Positions 27,079 through 37,953 of a stretch of DNA of 64,000 nucleotides are shown here, piece by piece (position 1 is the first letter of the stretch; every line of letters starts with the position of its first letter). The notes under the pieces were generated by a model. The model was not told the origin of the DNA. It saw only the letters and a program-made list of their open reading frames with translations, and did no database searches. A program made the translations under genes and the position numbers. Origin of the DNA: Streptomyces virginiae (GTDB lineage Bacteria; Actinomycetota; Actinomycetes; Streptomycetales; Streptomycetaceae); NCBI RefSeq assembly GCF_000720455.1, contig NZ_JOAK01000022.1, positions 52,780-116,779 on the forward strand, given 5' to 3'.

Positions 27079-27487
27079 GGAGGCACGGGCCGCGGCCTCG
27101 CCCGTACCGGGCGCGGTCGCCACCACTTTGAGCGGCATACTGCGGGCACCGGGTTCGTTGCCGCGCCGCTGTGATGCAGATGCCGAGGCGTGAGACGTGC
27201 CGACCGGTGGTCGGGGTGTGGAGGTCATAGGCCATGTTCTGCTCTTTGGAGTGTGTTTCCGGCGGGAAGAAGCCGCCGGAACGAGCTGGCCTCGTCGCGT
27301 TCGGGTAGGCCACGCCTCCAGTAGGCCCGGTGCGCAATCCACTGCCTGCCACGAAAAGAAGTGACTTGACGAACTTCCGGCCCAACCGGCCCTTGGTCCT
27401 ACCCGGGCCACCGCCGGATGTGATCAGTCGCTGGCTGAGGGCTTCTCGTTCTGACCGTGGGCGAAGATCGGTAAGAGCCTGGTCCCT
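27079..27487. other. No supported gene
   Basis: About 400 bp between the terminator and the BrkB remnant. Short open frames lack ribosome sites or family signatures. Confidence 0.4.
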
Positions 27488-30914: not shown

Positions 30915-30958
30915 GTCATTGCGGTCCCAGAAACTTGCTGGTCAGCACCGGATCCATA

Positions 30959-31534
30959 GTGGATGCTGCACGCGTGATCGAGCGAGAGACCGCGGTTCGT
31001 ATCGTCGAGGACGAGCTGGACCGCGAGACCCAGAAGTGGGCGGATCGGGGCGTGGCCCCGATCCGCACGACAGTGCTGCAGGTCGAGGAACACGAGCTGG
31101 TCTGGAAGGTGTACTGGCAGTCCGAGGAATACGCGCGTACCCGGGATCCTGCCACGATGTTGATCGGCCACGGCCCCTACCTGGTCGACCGCATCGATGG
31201 CGGGCTGCACCAAATTGGAGTGGTCTCCGAGATTGAGGGAGCCTGGGAGGCTGACTACCGCGCTCGCATCCGCGGGCAGGCCGTCCGCACCCCTGTGGAC
31301 GATCTACACGATGAGGTACGCGAAGCCGCCGCTCAGCGTGGGCGCATGCAAGCGGTACGCATCCTGCGCCAGAGACTGCCCATACTGTCCCCATCGCAGG
31401 CCCTTGAGTACGTGAGCGCGTTGCTGCACGCCGATGCCCCAGCCCACCTTGTGGCTGTCGCCGTTGAACAACTCATCGAGCCCATGAACACAGTGCTCGC
31501 CGTGAAGACCATCCGTCGGGGAAGGCTCGGCTAG
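30959..31534 (+). CDS. YrhB-domain protein (Imm35-like)
   Basis: 191 residues from GTG at 30959. N-terminal half: ETAVRIVEDELDRETQKWAD, VLQVEEHELVWKVYWQSEEY, RDPATMLIGHGPYLVDRIDG. The YWQSEEY and GHGPYLVDR elements are typical of the YrhB/Imm35 fold. The C-terminal half is helical (HDEVREAAAQRGRMQAVRIL, LSPSQALEYVSALLHADAPA). YrhB-type proteins include chaperones and toxin-immunity proteins. No toxin is adjacent. Confidence 0.75.
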   Translation: MDAARVIERETAVRIVEDELDRETQKWADRGVAPIRTTVLQVEEHELVWKVYWQSEEYARTRDPATMLIGHGPYLVDRIDGGLHQIGVVSEIEGAWEADYRARIRGQAVRTPVDDLHDEVREAAAQRGRMQAVRILRQRLPILSPSQALEYVSALLHADAPAHLVAVAVEQLIEPMNTVLAVKTIRRGRLG

Positions 31535-34809: not shown

Positions 34810-35110
34810 GTGCGCATCGCAGCCCTGGACGACCATGGACGGATCGCTCTGGTGGAGGAGAACGTCTACGTGTGTGGTCAGCGGCTGCTGATGTGCCCTG
34901 GTGGCGGATGCGAGCCCGGCGAGGATCCACGGGAGGCCGCGCGCCGAGAGCTGGCCGAGGAGGCTGGCATCCGCGCCGCAGAGATCGAGCTGCTGACGAT
35001 GATGTGGCGGATGTCCGCTGGCGCGCGTACCCGTGAGCATCTGTACTGCGACAGCGGGCCGCCGCCGGGGACGGCGTCCGTCCACCAGCCGACGGCCGCG
35101 GCGACGGCTT
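34810..35110 (+). pseudogene. NUDIX hydrolase, 3'-truncated
   Basis: VRIAALDDHGRIALVEENVY leads to a complete Nudix box in PGGGCEPGEDPREAARRELA then EEAGI (GX5EX7REUXEEXGU). After RTREHLYCDSGPPPGTAS the sequence becomes Arg/Pro/Ser-rich, the usual final strands and helix are missing, and the open frame runs on antisense to the P450 gene. The 3' third was probably lost at a joint near 35050-35110. Confidence 0.7.
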
Positions 35111-35171
35111 CCGGACTACACCGGCCCCGGGCCCGGAGCAAGCCGGACGAGGAGGCGGGGACGCCGGTCCG

Positions 35172-36575
35172 TCACGGTGCGGCGGGGGTGTTGGCGGTGA
35201 ACGGACACCGGGCTGCCCGGTGGTCTTCGGGCGGTGGGTCCGCAGCGGGCCGGTGGTCGCCGGGCCGGTCGCCGGGTGGGTGGGGACGGACCGAGACGTC
35301 GAGGGTGAGGTCGTGGGGCTGGAGGATGGTACGCGTGTGGAAGACGGGTGTCGTGCCGGGTGATCGGGTGACCTCGTAGTGGGGGGTGAGGGTTGCGGTG
35401 ACGATGGTCATGGCGGTGGTGGCGAAGTGGGTTCCGAGGCAGTTGCGCGGCCCTCCGCCGAACGGCATGAACGCGTACTTGGGCAGCGGGTTGGCGGCGC
35501 GGTCGGTCCAGCGGTCCGGGTCGAACGTGGTGGGCCGGTGGTAGTGGCGGGGGTCGCGGTGGAGGACGAAGGGGCTGACGGCGACCTTCTGGCCGGGGCG
35601 CAGGGGGTAGCCGGCGAGTTCGGTGGGTTCCTCGATGGTCCGCTGGAGGAACCAGAGCGGGGGGTAGAGGCGCAGGGTCTCCTTCACGACGGCTTCGGTG
35701 ACGGCCAGCCGGGGCACGTCGGCCGCGGTGGGGAGCGCGCCGGCGAGTTCCCGGTCGGCCTCGTCCCGTACCCGCCGACGGACTTCCGGGTGCCGGTCGA
35801 GGAGGAGGAGCAGCCAGGCGAGCGCGGCGGCGGTGGTCTCGTGGGCGGCGAAGAGGTTGGCGACGATGACGCTGGTCGCGCCCTCGTGGGTGAGGGCGCC
35901 TTCGTCGCACGCGGTGTTCAGGAGGTCCGCGACCACGGAGGGCGAGTCGTCCCGCCTCGTCGTACGCCGCCGGCGTATCAGGGAGGAGACTTCGTCGGCT
36001 AGGTCGCGCCCGGCGCGCTGGAGGCGGCGTCGGCGCAGCGCGTGCCAGCGGGCCGGCAGGGGCAGTGTGGGGGGCAGCAGCGCGTCCTGCAGGCGGGCCA
36101 AGAGGTCGGGGACGTCGCCGGTCTCGGGCCCGAGGCAGAACTCGGCGATCAGGTGGGCGGTGAGGTCTTCCAGTGCGGGGATCGCTACGATCCTGCCGCG
36201 TGCGTGCCAGGTGTCCGCGTGGCGGACGACGGTCGACGCGAGGCTGTCCCGGGCGGCGCGCATGCTGGTCCGGTTCAGGCCGCGTCCCGCCAGGCTGCGG
36301 GCCCGCATCCACAGGGCCAGGTCTTCGGAGCCGCGGCTTCCGTCGGTCGCCTCGCCCAGCAGGTCGCTGGAGATGCCGTAGGTGGTGTTGGTGTGCTTGA
36401 GGACCTCCTCAGCCAGGGCGGGCGAGTTCACGATGTACAGGTCGTCGTCGAAGCGGACCAGGTCGCCGTACTGCTGCTGGTCGAGGAGGAAACCGAGGTG
36501 GTCCCGCTCGAACGCGCGCCGGTTGCCGTACCGCCCGGCCCCCGAGGGGCCGGGCGGCACACGGGAAGACAGCAT
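35172..36575 (-). CDS. Cytochrome P450, coupled to poly-Tyr peptide gene
   Basis: 467 residues. I-helix AAHETT (244-248), ExxR as ETLR (Glu299, Arg302), PERF-type region DPDRW (353-357) and heme loop FGGGPRNCLG with Cys379. Residues 1-50 resemble other soluble actinobacterial P450s (DHLGFLLDQQQYGDLVRFDD). A Pro-rich tail of about 45 residues follows the conserved end. The ATG starts one codon after the stop of the 68-residue peptide gene, so the peptide is the prime substrate candidate. P450-only RiPP pathways (biarylitides, cittilins, atropopeptides) use such two-gene operons to cross-link Tyr, Trp or His side chains (family knowledge). No ferredoxin gene is adjacent. Confidence 0.93.
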   Translation of the reverse strand: MLSSRVPPGPSGAGRYGNRRAFERDHLGFLLDQQQYGDLVRFDDDLYIVNSPALAEEVLKHTNTTYGISSDLLGEATDGSRGSEDLALWMRARSLAGRGLNRTSMRAARDSLASTVVRHADTWHARGRIVAIPALEDLTAHLIAEFCLGPETGDVPDLLARLQDALLPPTLPLPARWHALRRRRLQRAGRDLADEVSSLIRRRRTTRRDDSPSVVADLLNTACDEGALTHEGATSVIVANLFAAHETTAAALAWLLLLLDRHPEVRRRVRDEADRELAGALPTAADVPRLAVTEAVVKETLRLYPPLWFLQRTIEEPTELAGYPLRPGQKVAVSPFVLHRDPRHYHRPTTFDPDRWTDRAANPLPKYAFMPFGGGPRNCLGTHFATTAMTIVTATLTPHYEVTRSPGTTPVFHTRTILQPHDLTLDVSVRPHPPGDRPGDHRPAADPPPEDHRAARCPFTANTPAAP

Positions 36576-36578
36576 CTG

Positions 36579-36785
36579 CTACCGCGCCTGTACGTAGTAG
36601 TAGTAATACGCACTGGAGTGGTCCGACCCTCCGAGCGTGCTGCTGCGTTGCACCTTCGCCCCGGAGGGATCGTTGGCCAGGTGGGCGGAGCTCGACGCGG
36701 CCTGTGCCGATCCGGCGCTGAGGAGCGCGGCGACGGCGGAGGCGGCGATGAGGAGCGACTTGCGGAGGGGGATCAGGGCAGCCAT
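36579..36785 (-). CDS. Candidate RiPP precursor with five-Tyr core
   Basis: 68 residues, ATG at 36785 behind a strong AAGGAGGACAG site. N-terminus MAALIPLRKSLLIAASAVAA, LLSAGSAQA looks like a Sec signal with an AQA cleavage site. A hydrophilic middle (SSSAHLANDPSGAKVQRSST) and the C-terminal tail SDHSSAYYYYYVQAR follow. Five adjacent tyrosines near the end are an unusual core. The TAG stop at 36579-36581 is followed by one codon and then the ATG of the P450, in the same frame, so the two are certainly cotranscribed. Cross-linking of the tyrosines by the P450 is inferred, not shown. A plain secreted peptide is the alternative. Confidence 0.8.
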   Translation of the reverse strand: MAALIPLRKSLLIAASAVAALLSAGSAQAASSSAHLANDPSGAKVQRSSTLGGSDHSSAYYYYYVQAR

Positions 36786-37464
36786 GGCTGTCCTCCTTCG
36801 GGGTGGGATGGGCGGCGGTTCCGCCCGGTTCGTTGCCCTTATTAGTCCACCCGCGGCATCCGGGGGTCATGCCCCGGGAACGCGTGGCATGACCCCCGCG
36901 CCCGCGTCTGCCACAATGCGGGCTTTCGCGCGCCCCCGGCTCCGCCCGGCCGAGGCCGCCCCCACGCCCAGCGGAGCGGTTCAGCCCGAGGACGTGGTCG
37001 GGCGGCCCCGCCCGGCGGAGGACGTCCCGAAGGCGGGAGCGGCCGCGGCGCCGCCCGTCGTGGCGGGGCGCGCCGGGACTCCACCGGAGACCGGGATCCC
37101 GTTGCCCGCCGGGGTCGGTCCGGCGGTGGTGGCCGGCCGGGCCGCGCTGCGCCCGGTGCGGGGCGAGGTCCTCGCCCACGGTCACGCCGGGGACCAGGCT
37201 GCCGGCCCCCAGCAACCCACCGACTCCAGCCTGAAATTCTCAGTAATGGTGGAGTCGGATGTTGCAACTCTCGGAATAGATCCTGACGGCCAGATCGGTC
37301 TGGCCACTCATGACTGAGGACCGCTTCACCGCGGCACGTGCAAAGGCGGGCATCGCCCATTTCCCTCCCGCAGGGGCCGCCGCGGGTGCCGTGCGCAGGG
37401 CTTCGGCGATCAGCAGCTCGTTGTAGTAGTGATACCGGCATGAAAGGTGTGGAAGGGGCGAAGG
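36786..37464. other. Divergent intergenic region between peptide/P450 and cyclophilin genes
   Basis: About 680 bp without a convincing gene. Long open frames exist because of the base bias, but none has a ribosome site or family signature. Probably holds the promoters of both flanking genes. Confidence 0.45.
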
Positions 37465-37953
37465 GTGAGCGAGAACGTCTACTTCGACATCACCATCGCC
37501 GACAAGCCCGCAGGGCGGATCGTCTTCAAGCTGTTTGACGATGTCGTTCCCAGGACCGCCCGGAACTTCCGCGGGCTGGCCACCGGCCAGAACGGGTACG
37601 GCTACGCGGGTTCCGGCTTCCACCGGGTCATCCCCAACTTCATGCTCCAGGGCGGTGACTTCACCCACCACAACGGCACCGGCGGCAAGAGCATCTACGG
37701 GGTCCAGTTCAAGGACGAGTTCACGCTCAAGCACACCAAGCCTGGCCTCCTATCCATGGCGAACTCGGGCAAGAACGCCAACGGCTCGCAGTTCTTCATC
37801 ACCACCGTCGTCACGAGCTGGCTGGACGACGCGCACGTCGCCTTCGGCGAGGTCGTCGAGGACATGACCGTTGTAAAGGCAATCGAGGCGTTGGGCTCAC
37901 AGAGCGGCACGGTCAAGAAGCCAGTGAAGATCGCCGCGTCGGGCACGGCCTGA
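37465..37953 (+). CDS. Cyclophilin-type peptidyl-prolyl isomerase
   Basis: 162 residues from GTG at 37465 ([20 protein letters not shown]). Catalytic Arg in [20 protein letters not shown], then [20 protein letters not shown] and [20 protein letters not shown]. The ungapped eukaryote-like form ([16 protein letters not shown]) is cytosolic cyclophilin A-like, as known in Streptomyces. Catalyses Xaa-Pro cis/trans isomerisation. It faces away from the P450 operon; a link to it is not implied by sequence. Confidence 0.95.

Follow-up and report, generated by a model that had tools for sequence, protein, structure and literature searches.

A conserved peptide-cytochrome P450 gene pair of Streptomyces and its probable role as a two-gene RiPP pathway with a tyrosine-rich tail

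Two adjacent genes lie on the minus strand of the window, by which we mean the whole 64,000-nucleotide stretch of the Streptomyces virginiae contig NZ_JOAK01000022.1 that was analyzed (Table 1). The first encodes a peptide of 68 residues that contains no Cys and ends in SSAYYYYYVQAR (AYYYYYVQAR), with Tyr60 to Tyr64 encoded by TAT TAC TAC TAC TAC, and the second encodes a full-length cytochrome P450. The TAG stop of the peptide gene is followed by the single codon CAG and then, in the same frame, by the P450 ATG at 36575, which leaves three bases between stop and start. An earlier sequence-only reading of this DNA had reported such a peptide with a signal-like leader directly before a full-length P450, a separation of one codon, a strong ribosome-binding site, and intact P450 motifs. 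Each of these statements holds, and the strand, on which that reading was silent, can be added. Of the 10 upstream regions compared, 8 carry AGGAGG. Long plus-strand frames over the operon were taken as antisense frames of GC-rich DNA, and a plain promoter and terminator scan found no feature.

Table 1. Positions of the features of the peptide-P450 unit in the window
Feature	Position	Strand	Remark
Upstream dyad CGGGGGTCATGCCACG-N6-CGGGGCATGACCCCCG	36861..36898	-	-113 to -76 from ATG; likely operator
Ribosome-binding site AGGAGG	36792..36797	-	6 nt 5' of peptide ATG
Peptide gene (putative precursor)	36785-36579 (36579..36785)	-	68 aa; product MAALIPLRKSLLIAASAVAALLSAGSAQAASSSAHLANDPSGAKVQRSSTLGGSDHSSAYYYYYVQAR
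Leader, export-signal-like: R8-K9, hydrophobic stretch, A27-x-A29	36699..36785	-	residues 1-29
DPSG motif in variable linker	36660..36671	-	residues 39-42
Tail Tyr60-Tyr64; conserved Y-x-Y pair at Tyr60 and Tyr62	36594..36608	-	
Cytochrome P450 gene (probable tail-modifying enzyme)	36575-35172 (35172..36575)	-	467 aa
Haem-binding motif FGGGPRNCLG, Cys379	35433..35462	-	in the P450

The genes around the unit look unrelated to it. A NUDIX protein frame (34810-35379, plus strand) is convergent with the end of the P450 gene, a cyclophilin gene stands at 37447-37953 (plus strand), and further off lie genes for an EF-hand protein and an Imm35 protein; the Imm35 protein, which carries an immunity-type domain, is encoded at 30935-31534 on the plus strand. 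None of the eight neighboring open reading frames scanned encodes a transporter, a protease, or a further modifying enzyme. Among the entries listed for 11 loci, some of them short, flanking genes are common only to H27, TBY4, and G073, and in genome G053 an operon 99% identical to that of the window nevertheless has other flanking genes.

The P450 matches the Pfam p450 model at E=5e-58 and carries the oxygen-activation, ExxR, and haem motifs; in an alignment of 52 sequences that includes the window's own, the residues of AHETT, ExxR, and FGGGPRxCxG are either invariant or kept in at least 90% of the rows. Together with 32 other proteins that are 57-86% identical to it, it makes up a clade of 33 (a fragment and a copy at 99% are not counted); outside the clade, identity falls to 38% or less among the 120 matches listed. 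Two deep members, P0050 and P0051, show 57-60% identity. A P450 tree with 41 rows recovers the clade with 100/100 support on a stem 1.18 changes per site long, and judged from these sequences it is isolated. Every clade member that bears a name is a Streptomyces protein; the mycobacterial P450 loci L008 and L009 (32-34% identity) fall outside the clade, and plasmid records gave no match to the window P450 at E<=1e-60. Among solved structures, 3dbg is the best match to the sequence of the window P450 (144.8 bits).

Several lines of evidence indicate that the two genes belong together. The peptide has no match in Pfam, NCBIfam, or PHROGs. Of 16 matches in a database search with it, 14 are full-length homologs (E<=5.8e-16), and a profile search returned 27 full-length proteins among 30 matches, the other three being truncated or frame-broken records of 50-51 aa. 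An intact peptide gene stands 2-5 bases 5' of a clade P450 in all 11 loci read, that is, the window, L001 to L007, G073, G053, and G242, whose P450s are 64-100% identical. One of these loci, that of Streptomyces sp. NRRL F-2580 (L001), is near-identical to the window's (P450 99%, peptide 100%). Nine of the 11 P450 genes stay in frame as far as the haem motif and through it. The two exceptions, G053 and S. katrae (L007), lose the frame in different ways at about residue 300, ahead of that motif, with the peptide gene intact in both; unless these are assembly errors, the unit would be dispensable there. Among 392 Streptomyces genomes the P450 is present in 8, G053 included (E<=1e-120), and the peptide in the same 8 and in G308 (E<=1e-17), which makes 9. 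This count excludes weak peptide-profile matches (E 5e-5 to 0.009) in 32 further genomes; these, in open frames between 137 and 1267 codons long, were taken for unrelated signal sequences. The peptide gene of G308 (L031/L048) is a decayed copy with a frameshift that falls after the leader and ahead of the tail, and the surrounding 19.9 kb yielded no P450. Thus, in this one case, the peptide is decayed where the enzyme is missing. Sixteen of the 33 clade P450s could be paired with a peptide, 12 through matched protein hits, one of which is a broken peptide record, and 4 through DNA. The two-gene precursor-P450 unit posited by the sequence-only reading is therefore well founded as a gene pair, conserved in 11 of 11 loci and in 8 of 8 genomes with the P450. 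To look beyond Streptomyces, the peptide profile was run against 295 genomes from 72 genera; it matched three, all in its own genus. A search that started from P0050, deep in the clade, found at E<=1e-75 only the window's own genome, both among 343 genomes of the order (10 genera) and among 345 of the class (126 genera). Absence outside Streptomyces is only indicated by these searches, because the order and class samples missed known Streptomyces carriers.

To compare tails, 34 distinct peptides were anchored at the first Tyr of the tail; the rows are related and their counts are not independent. Of the 285 residues in the tails 136 are Tyr, compared with 6 of the 1129 in the linkers, and the linker is variable apart from DPSG, which 33 of the 34 peptides hold. 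Position 1 of the tail is Tyr in all 34 peptides and position 3 in 33, whereas position 2 is another residue in 5 (Gly twice, Cys, His, and Arg), position 4 in 13, and position 5 in 16. The resulting Y-x-Y pattern is obeyed by the tails YGYYYVQGR, YHYHYVQG, YYYNVGG, YCYDRYCPRR, and YRYRR, and the sole exception is YYITTFGSGR of P0151. The five-Tyr run, which the sequence-only reading had taken for the core, is complete in only 13 of the 34 peptides; what is kept is Y-x-Y. Tails that lack the run, such as YYYNVGG, YCYDRYCPRR, YRYRR, and YYITTFGSGR, do exist, and since that reading had itself named such homologs as evidence against it, it is in part contradicted. In the P450 tree, where 16 of the 41 rows are labeled with a tail (P0047 is labeled by species name only), both YYYNVGG rows share one clade with YCYDRYCPRR, a thin indication, consistent with joint change of tail and enzyme.

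As the Tyr tract is built mostly of TAC repeats, one might suspect that the peptide frame is spurious, or that its Tyr run is an accident of a trinucleotide repeat. We give this practically no chance, and conservation has already refuted it: there are 34 distinct homologs with substitution at the codon level, the ribosome site and the upstream region are conserved, and codon-level changes and indels across species mean that the tract is not a frozen repeat. The tail pattern also bears on the chemistry of the enzyme. The default chemistry of P450s is monooxygenation, and the window protein keeps all the monooxygenase motifs, which would suit a P450 that hydroxylates or otherwise oxidizes single tyrosines (e.g., in a DOPA-type modification) and makes no cross-link. 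However, hydroxylation of a single residue would not demand a spacing, and conservation of the spaced pair at positions 1 and 3, with neighbors free to change, speaks against it. We consider such single-tyrosine oxidation rather improbable.

The upstream dyad of the window, with 16-base arms and one mismatch, is likely to be an operator. Its score was reached in 0 of 200 base shuffles; the best dyads of ISL43 and G308 gave p 0.030 and 0.045, that of S. olivochromogenes a borderline 0.10, and six of the ten regions are not significant, the alignment of these six showing the stretch conserved but less symmetric. The palindromic form GTCAAGTCACG-N6-CGTGACTTGAC, with up to three mismatches, occurs at 13 places in the genome of the window, the search giving 22 strand matches against 6 for the reversed control. 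At 7 of the 13 places, the peptide's included, a small exported-looking protein starts 64-110 bases away; these proteins, of 68-158 aa, were judged by eye, and the figure of 7 is a raw count. The other six places are L064, L066, L069, L070, L078, and L082. Such a position before small exported-looking proteins fits export of the peptide, and the dyad gives a handle on the regulator of the peptide gene. A literature search with the 10-mers of the dyad brought up no Streptomyces paper, by title, among the matches listed. At L064 (1593-2015, plus strand) the same upstream element precedes a gene whose 140-aa product looks secreted and has repeats around WQCxxAPCGPPD. The dyad places L081 (window 27343-27370) and L082 have an identical 28-base sequence; the L082 gene begins MAHDLHTPTTGRHLSRLGICITA and looks exported, and the L081 gene, in the window, begins like it and then diverges, like a decayed copy.

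The same dyad raises the question of whether the peptide is a substrate at all. It could be a co-regulated small exported protein, with the P450 serving the oxidation of some other small molecule. In agreement with this, the dyad lies ahead of six more small proteins of this genome that look exported, and an unsystematic look through 3-kb open reading frame listings of three dyad places noticed no P450; in addition, the model class of the P450 includes terpene oxidases. Nevertheless, pairing and order are strict in 11 of 11 loci, the peptide is decayed in G308, where the P450 was not found, and no other gene is conserved beside the pair in most loci. Given this coupling, a peptide that is not the substrate seems distinctly improbable to us.

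The leader has the look of an export signal, from which Sec-type export may be inferred. In 30 aligned peptide rows A27 and A29 are invariant and R8 is at least 90% conserved, and the hydropathy of the leader peaks at residues 11-25. Some divergent leaders have RR in place of the usual RK, and from these Tat export of the peptide is conceivable. The leader is unusually conserved at synonymous sites: the proportion of synonymous differences (pS) is 0.14 in the leader, 0.39 in the linker, and 0.33 in the tail for six sequences, and 0.31, 0.49, and 0.44, respectively, for nine. Recent shared ancestry within one genus would also lead one to expect a conserved leader. Leaders of the export-signal type are rare among bacterial RiPPs, and export signals are usually less conserved than this leader. 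It could accordingly be a RiPP leader that merely resembles a signal, with the core freed inside the cell and no Sec export. The strong conservation, down to synonymous sites, would be in keeping with this, and so would the release by a ubiquitous protease that is believed to free the cores of atropopeptides, as reported in PMC11450843. Against it, the residues that are kept are those of an export signal (the basic residue 8, the hydrophobic stretch, and AxA at 27-29), and the six other dyad places precede small proteins that look exported. We regard intracellular release as unlikely, though with a chance that we would not call small; it concerns the export step only, and its odds overlap those of the main explanation.

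At the level of genes the unit has the features of P450-modified RiPPs ("cyptides"), that is, a conserved precursor-P450 pair and a C-terminal core with conserved aromatic residues. Among the known systems, the aminopyruvatides (ApyA/ApyO) resemble it in the broad class of the P450 and in two i,i+2 tyrosines near the C-terminus (as described in PMC13192836). ApyO is reported to join the two Tyr of YLY and, with YYY, to give C-C and C-O isomers, which by mass alone could not be told apart (PMC13192836), and i,i+2 joining in YLY is also reported in PMC11117315. In contrast to the two genes and signal-like leader found here, the apy cluster, as presented in PMC11117315, comprises an MNIO, an RRE protein, a B12-rSAM enzyme, and a methyltransferase, with a C-terminal Asp; none of these four partners occurs in the eight neighboring open reading frames. 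On the ApyO equivalog model the window P450 scores 164.5 bits, below the cut-off of 525. For six further P450s from the class this model gives 131-217 bits, so the likeness is one of class only, and a specifically ApyO-like P450, considered at one stage, was dropped because other P450s of the class score about the same or better.

The biarylitides (BytA/BytO, P450Blt) share with the unit a minimal peptide-P450 pair and a Y-x-Y/H core, but their precursors have five residues, of the form MxYxY/H according to PMC13417212, as against 68 here, and no such pentapeptide feature is seen. Kinship of the P450 with the BytO type, which the sequence-only reading had left to a tree, finds no support in the single biarylitide-related P450 compared. 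A search for MRYxH-type patterns found places in 3 of 199 genomes; their first stretches held no P450 by the motif filters, the wider stretches of two genomes did, and only the P450 of G138 (L084) was compared. That protein gives 292.6 bits to 8U2M, which is named P450Blt (PMC12352619), and an MRYLH gene lies about 3.7 kb from it on the other strand; it may be a side branch of the biarylitide P450s. It aligns with the window P450 at 27% identity over 111 aa (43.5 bits) and matches none of the three models best matched by the window P450. In G013 (L083) an MRYLH pentapeptide gene stands beside what by eye is a nitric-oxide-synthase-like gene, with two P450 genes nearby, an arrangement that resembles the nitrotyrosine variant of biarylitide pathways reported in PMC13417212.

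The atropopeptides (tryptorubin) likewise have a two-gene cluster, a leader with a short aromatic core, and a P450 as sole maturase; unlike them, the unit has a leader that resembles an export signal. They are defined, according to PMC11450843, by a KSLK-type motif at leader residues 17-20 and Trp at core position 2. KSLK was not found at residues 17-20 in the 30 aligned peptide rows, some members having a KSLL stretch at residues 9-12, and none of the 34 tails contains Trp. The cittilin core is YIYY. The likeness to cittilins lies in the biaryl and aryl-ether links between tyrosines, reported for them in PMC11450843 and only presumed here. Bufferins, in turn, offer a precedent for RiPP precursors with a Sec signal instead of a typical leader, as the peptide here may have (PMC12452194 describes them so); they differ from the unit in having an MNIO enzyme, a cysteine core, and no P450, and neither an MNIO, in the eight neighboring open reading frames, nor a Cys-rich core was found here. 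The best reading of these comparisons is a P450-modified RiPP with a minimal cluster that lacks the biarylitide, atropopeptide, and aminopyruvatide features looked for.

A pair that is conserved, with a leader that is kept and an aromatic tail that has diversified, follows the logic of P450-modified RiPPs, and we favor, with a probability of about 0.7, a two-gene RiPP pathway consisting of a peptide precursor and a P450 maturase, with a Tyr(i)-Tyr(i+2) link and Sec-type export. The P450-RiPP reading made from the sequence alone thus stands in its two-gene unit and its division into leader and tail, and gives way in its five-Tyr core. In the pathway that we propose, the 68-aa peptide would be the precursor and the translationally coupled P450 its maturase. 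The joining of i,i+2 tyrosines by ApyO and the biarylitide pattern MxYxY/H lead us to expect a ring between Tyr60 and Tyr62, a biaryl or aryl-ether ring formed oxidatively with a loss of 2.016 Da, and in members with YYYYY a second, overlapping link could follow, e.g., Tyr62-Tyr64. The leader would be bound first by the P450 and would then serve as export signal, the general secretory machinery exporting the modified peptide and signal peptidase cutting after AxA (A29). The peptide would then need no dedicated transporter or protease, and such a route would explain why neither was found nearby.

It is possible, and we put it forward tentatively, that the unit has a separate origin, in which an isolated P450 lineage other than that of the biarylitides was recruited to oligo-Tyr tails and builds a ladder of Tyr(i)-Tyr(i+2) links, the mature peptide of 30-40 residues, whatever function it may have, being secreted within a regulon of small exported proteins. 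If so, its export through the general secretory pathway would have no known precedent among P450-RiPPs; our search of the open-access literature did not find a P450-modified RiPP and a secretory signal together. In the same literature no paper on the peptide-P450 family was found by title or abstract start, and the family is apparently not described yet. The two main mining studies (Angew 2023 e202311533; Angew 2024 e202314046) are said in PMC12299652 to report six families and eleven categories of P450-RiPPs, and the family may therefore be listed in them uncharacterized. As its enzyme comes from another branch of P450s, searches that start from BytO, CitB, or TrpB may overlook this family, which would be an addition to the known P450-RiPPs.

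The two-gene unit should be easy to move into a laboratory host, and the natural tails YYYYY, YGYYY, YHYHY, YYYN, YCYDRY, and YRYRR form a ready series for testing how cross-linking depends on position and on neighboring residues. For the window's own peptide, the calculated mass of the 39 residues that a cut after Ala29 would leave is 4150.937 Da, less 2.016 per link, and the tail fragment SSTLGGSDHSSAYYYYYVQAR has a calculated mass of 2374.050 Da, which one link would lower to 2372.035 and two to 2370.019.
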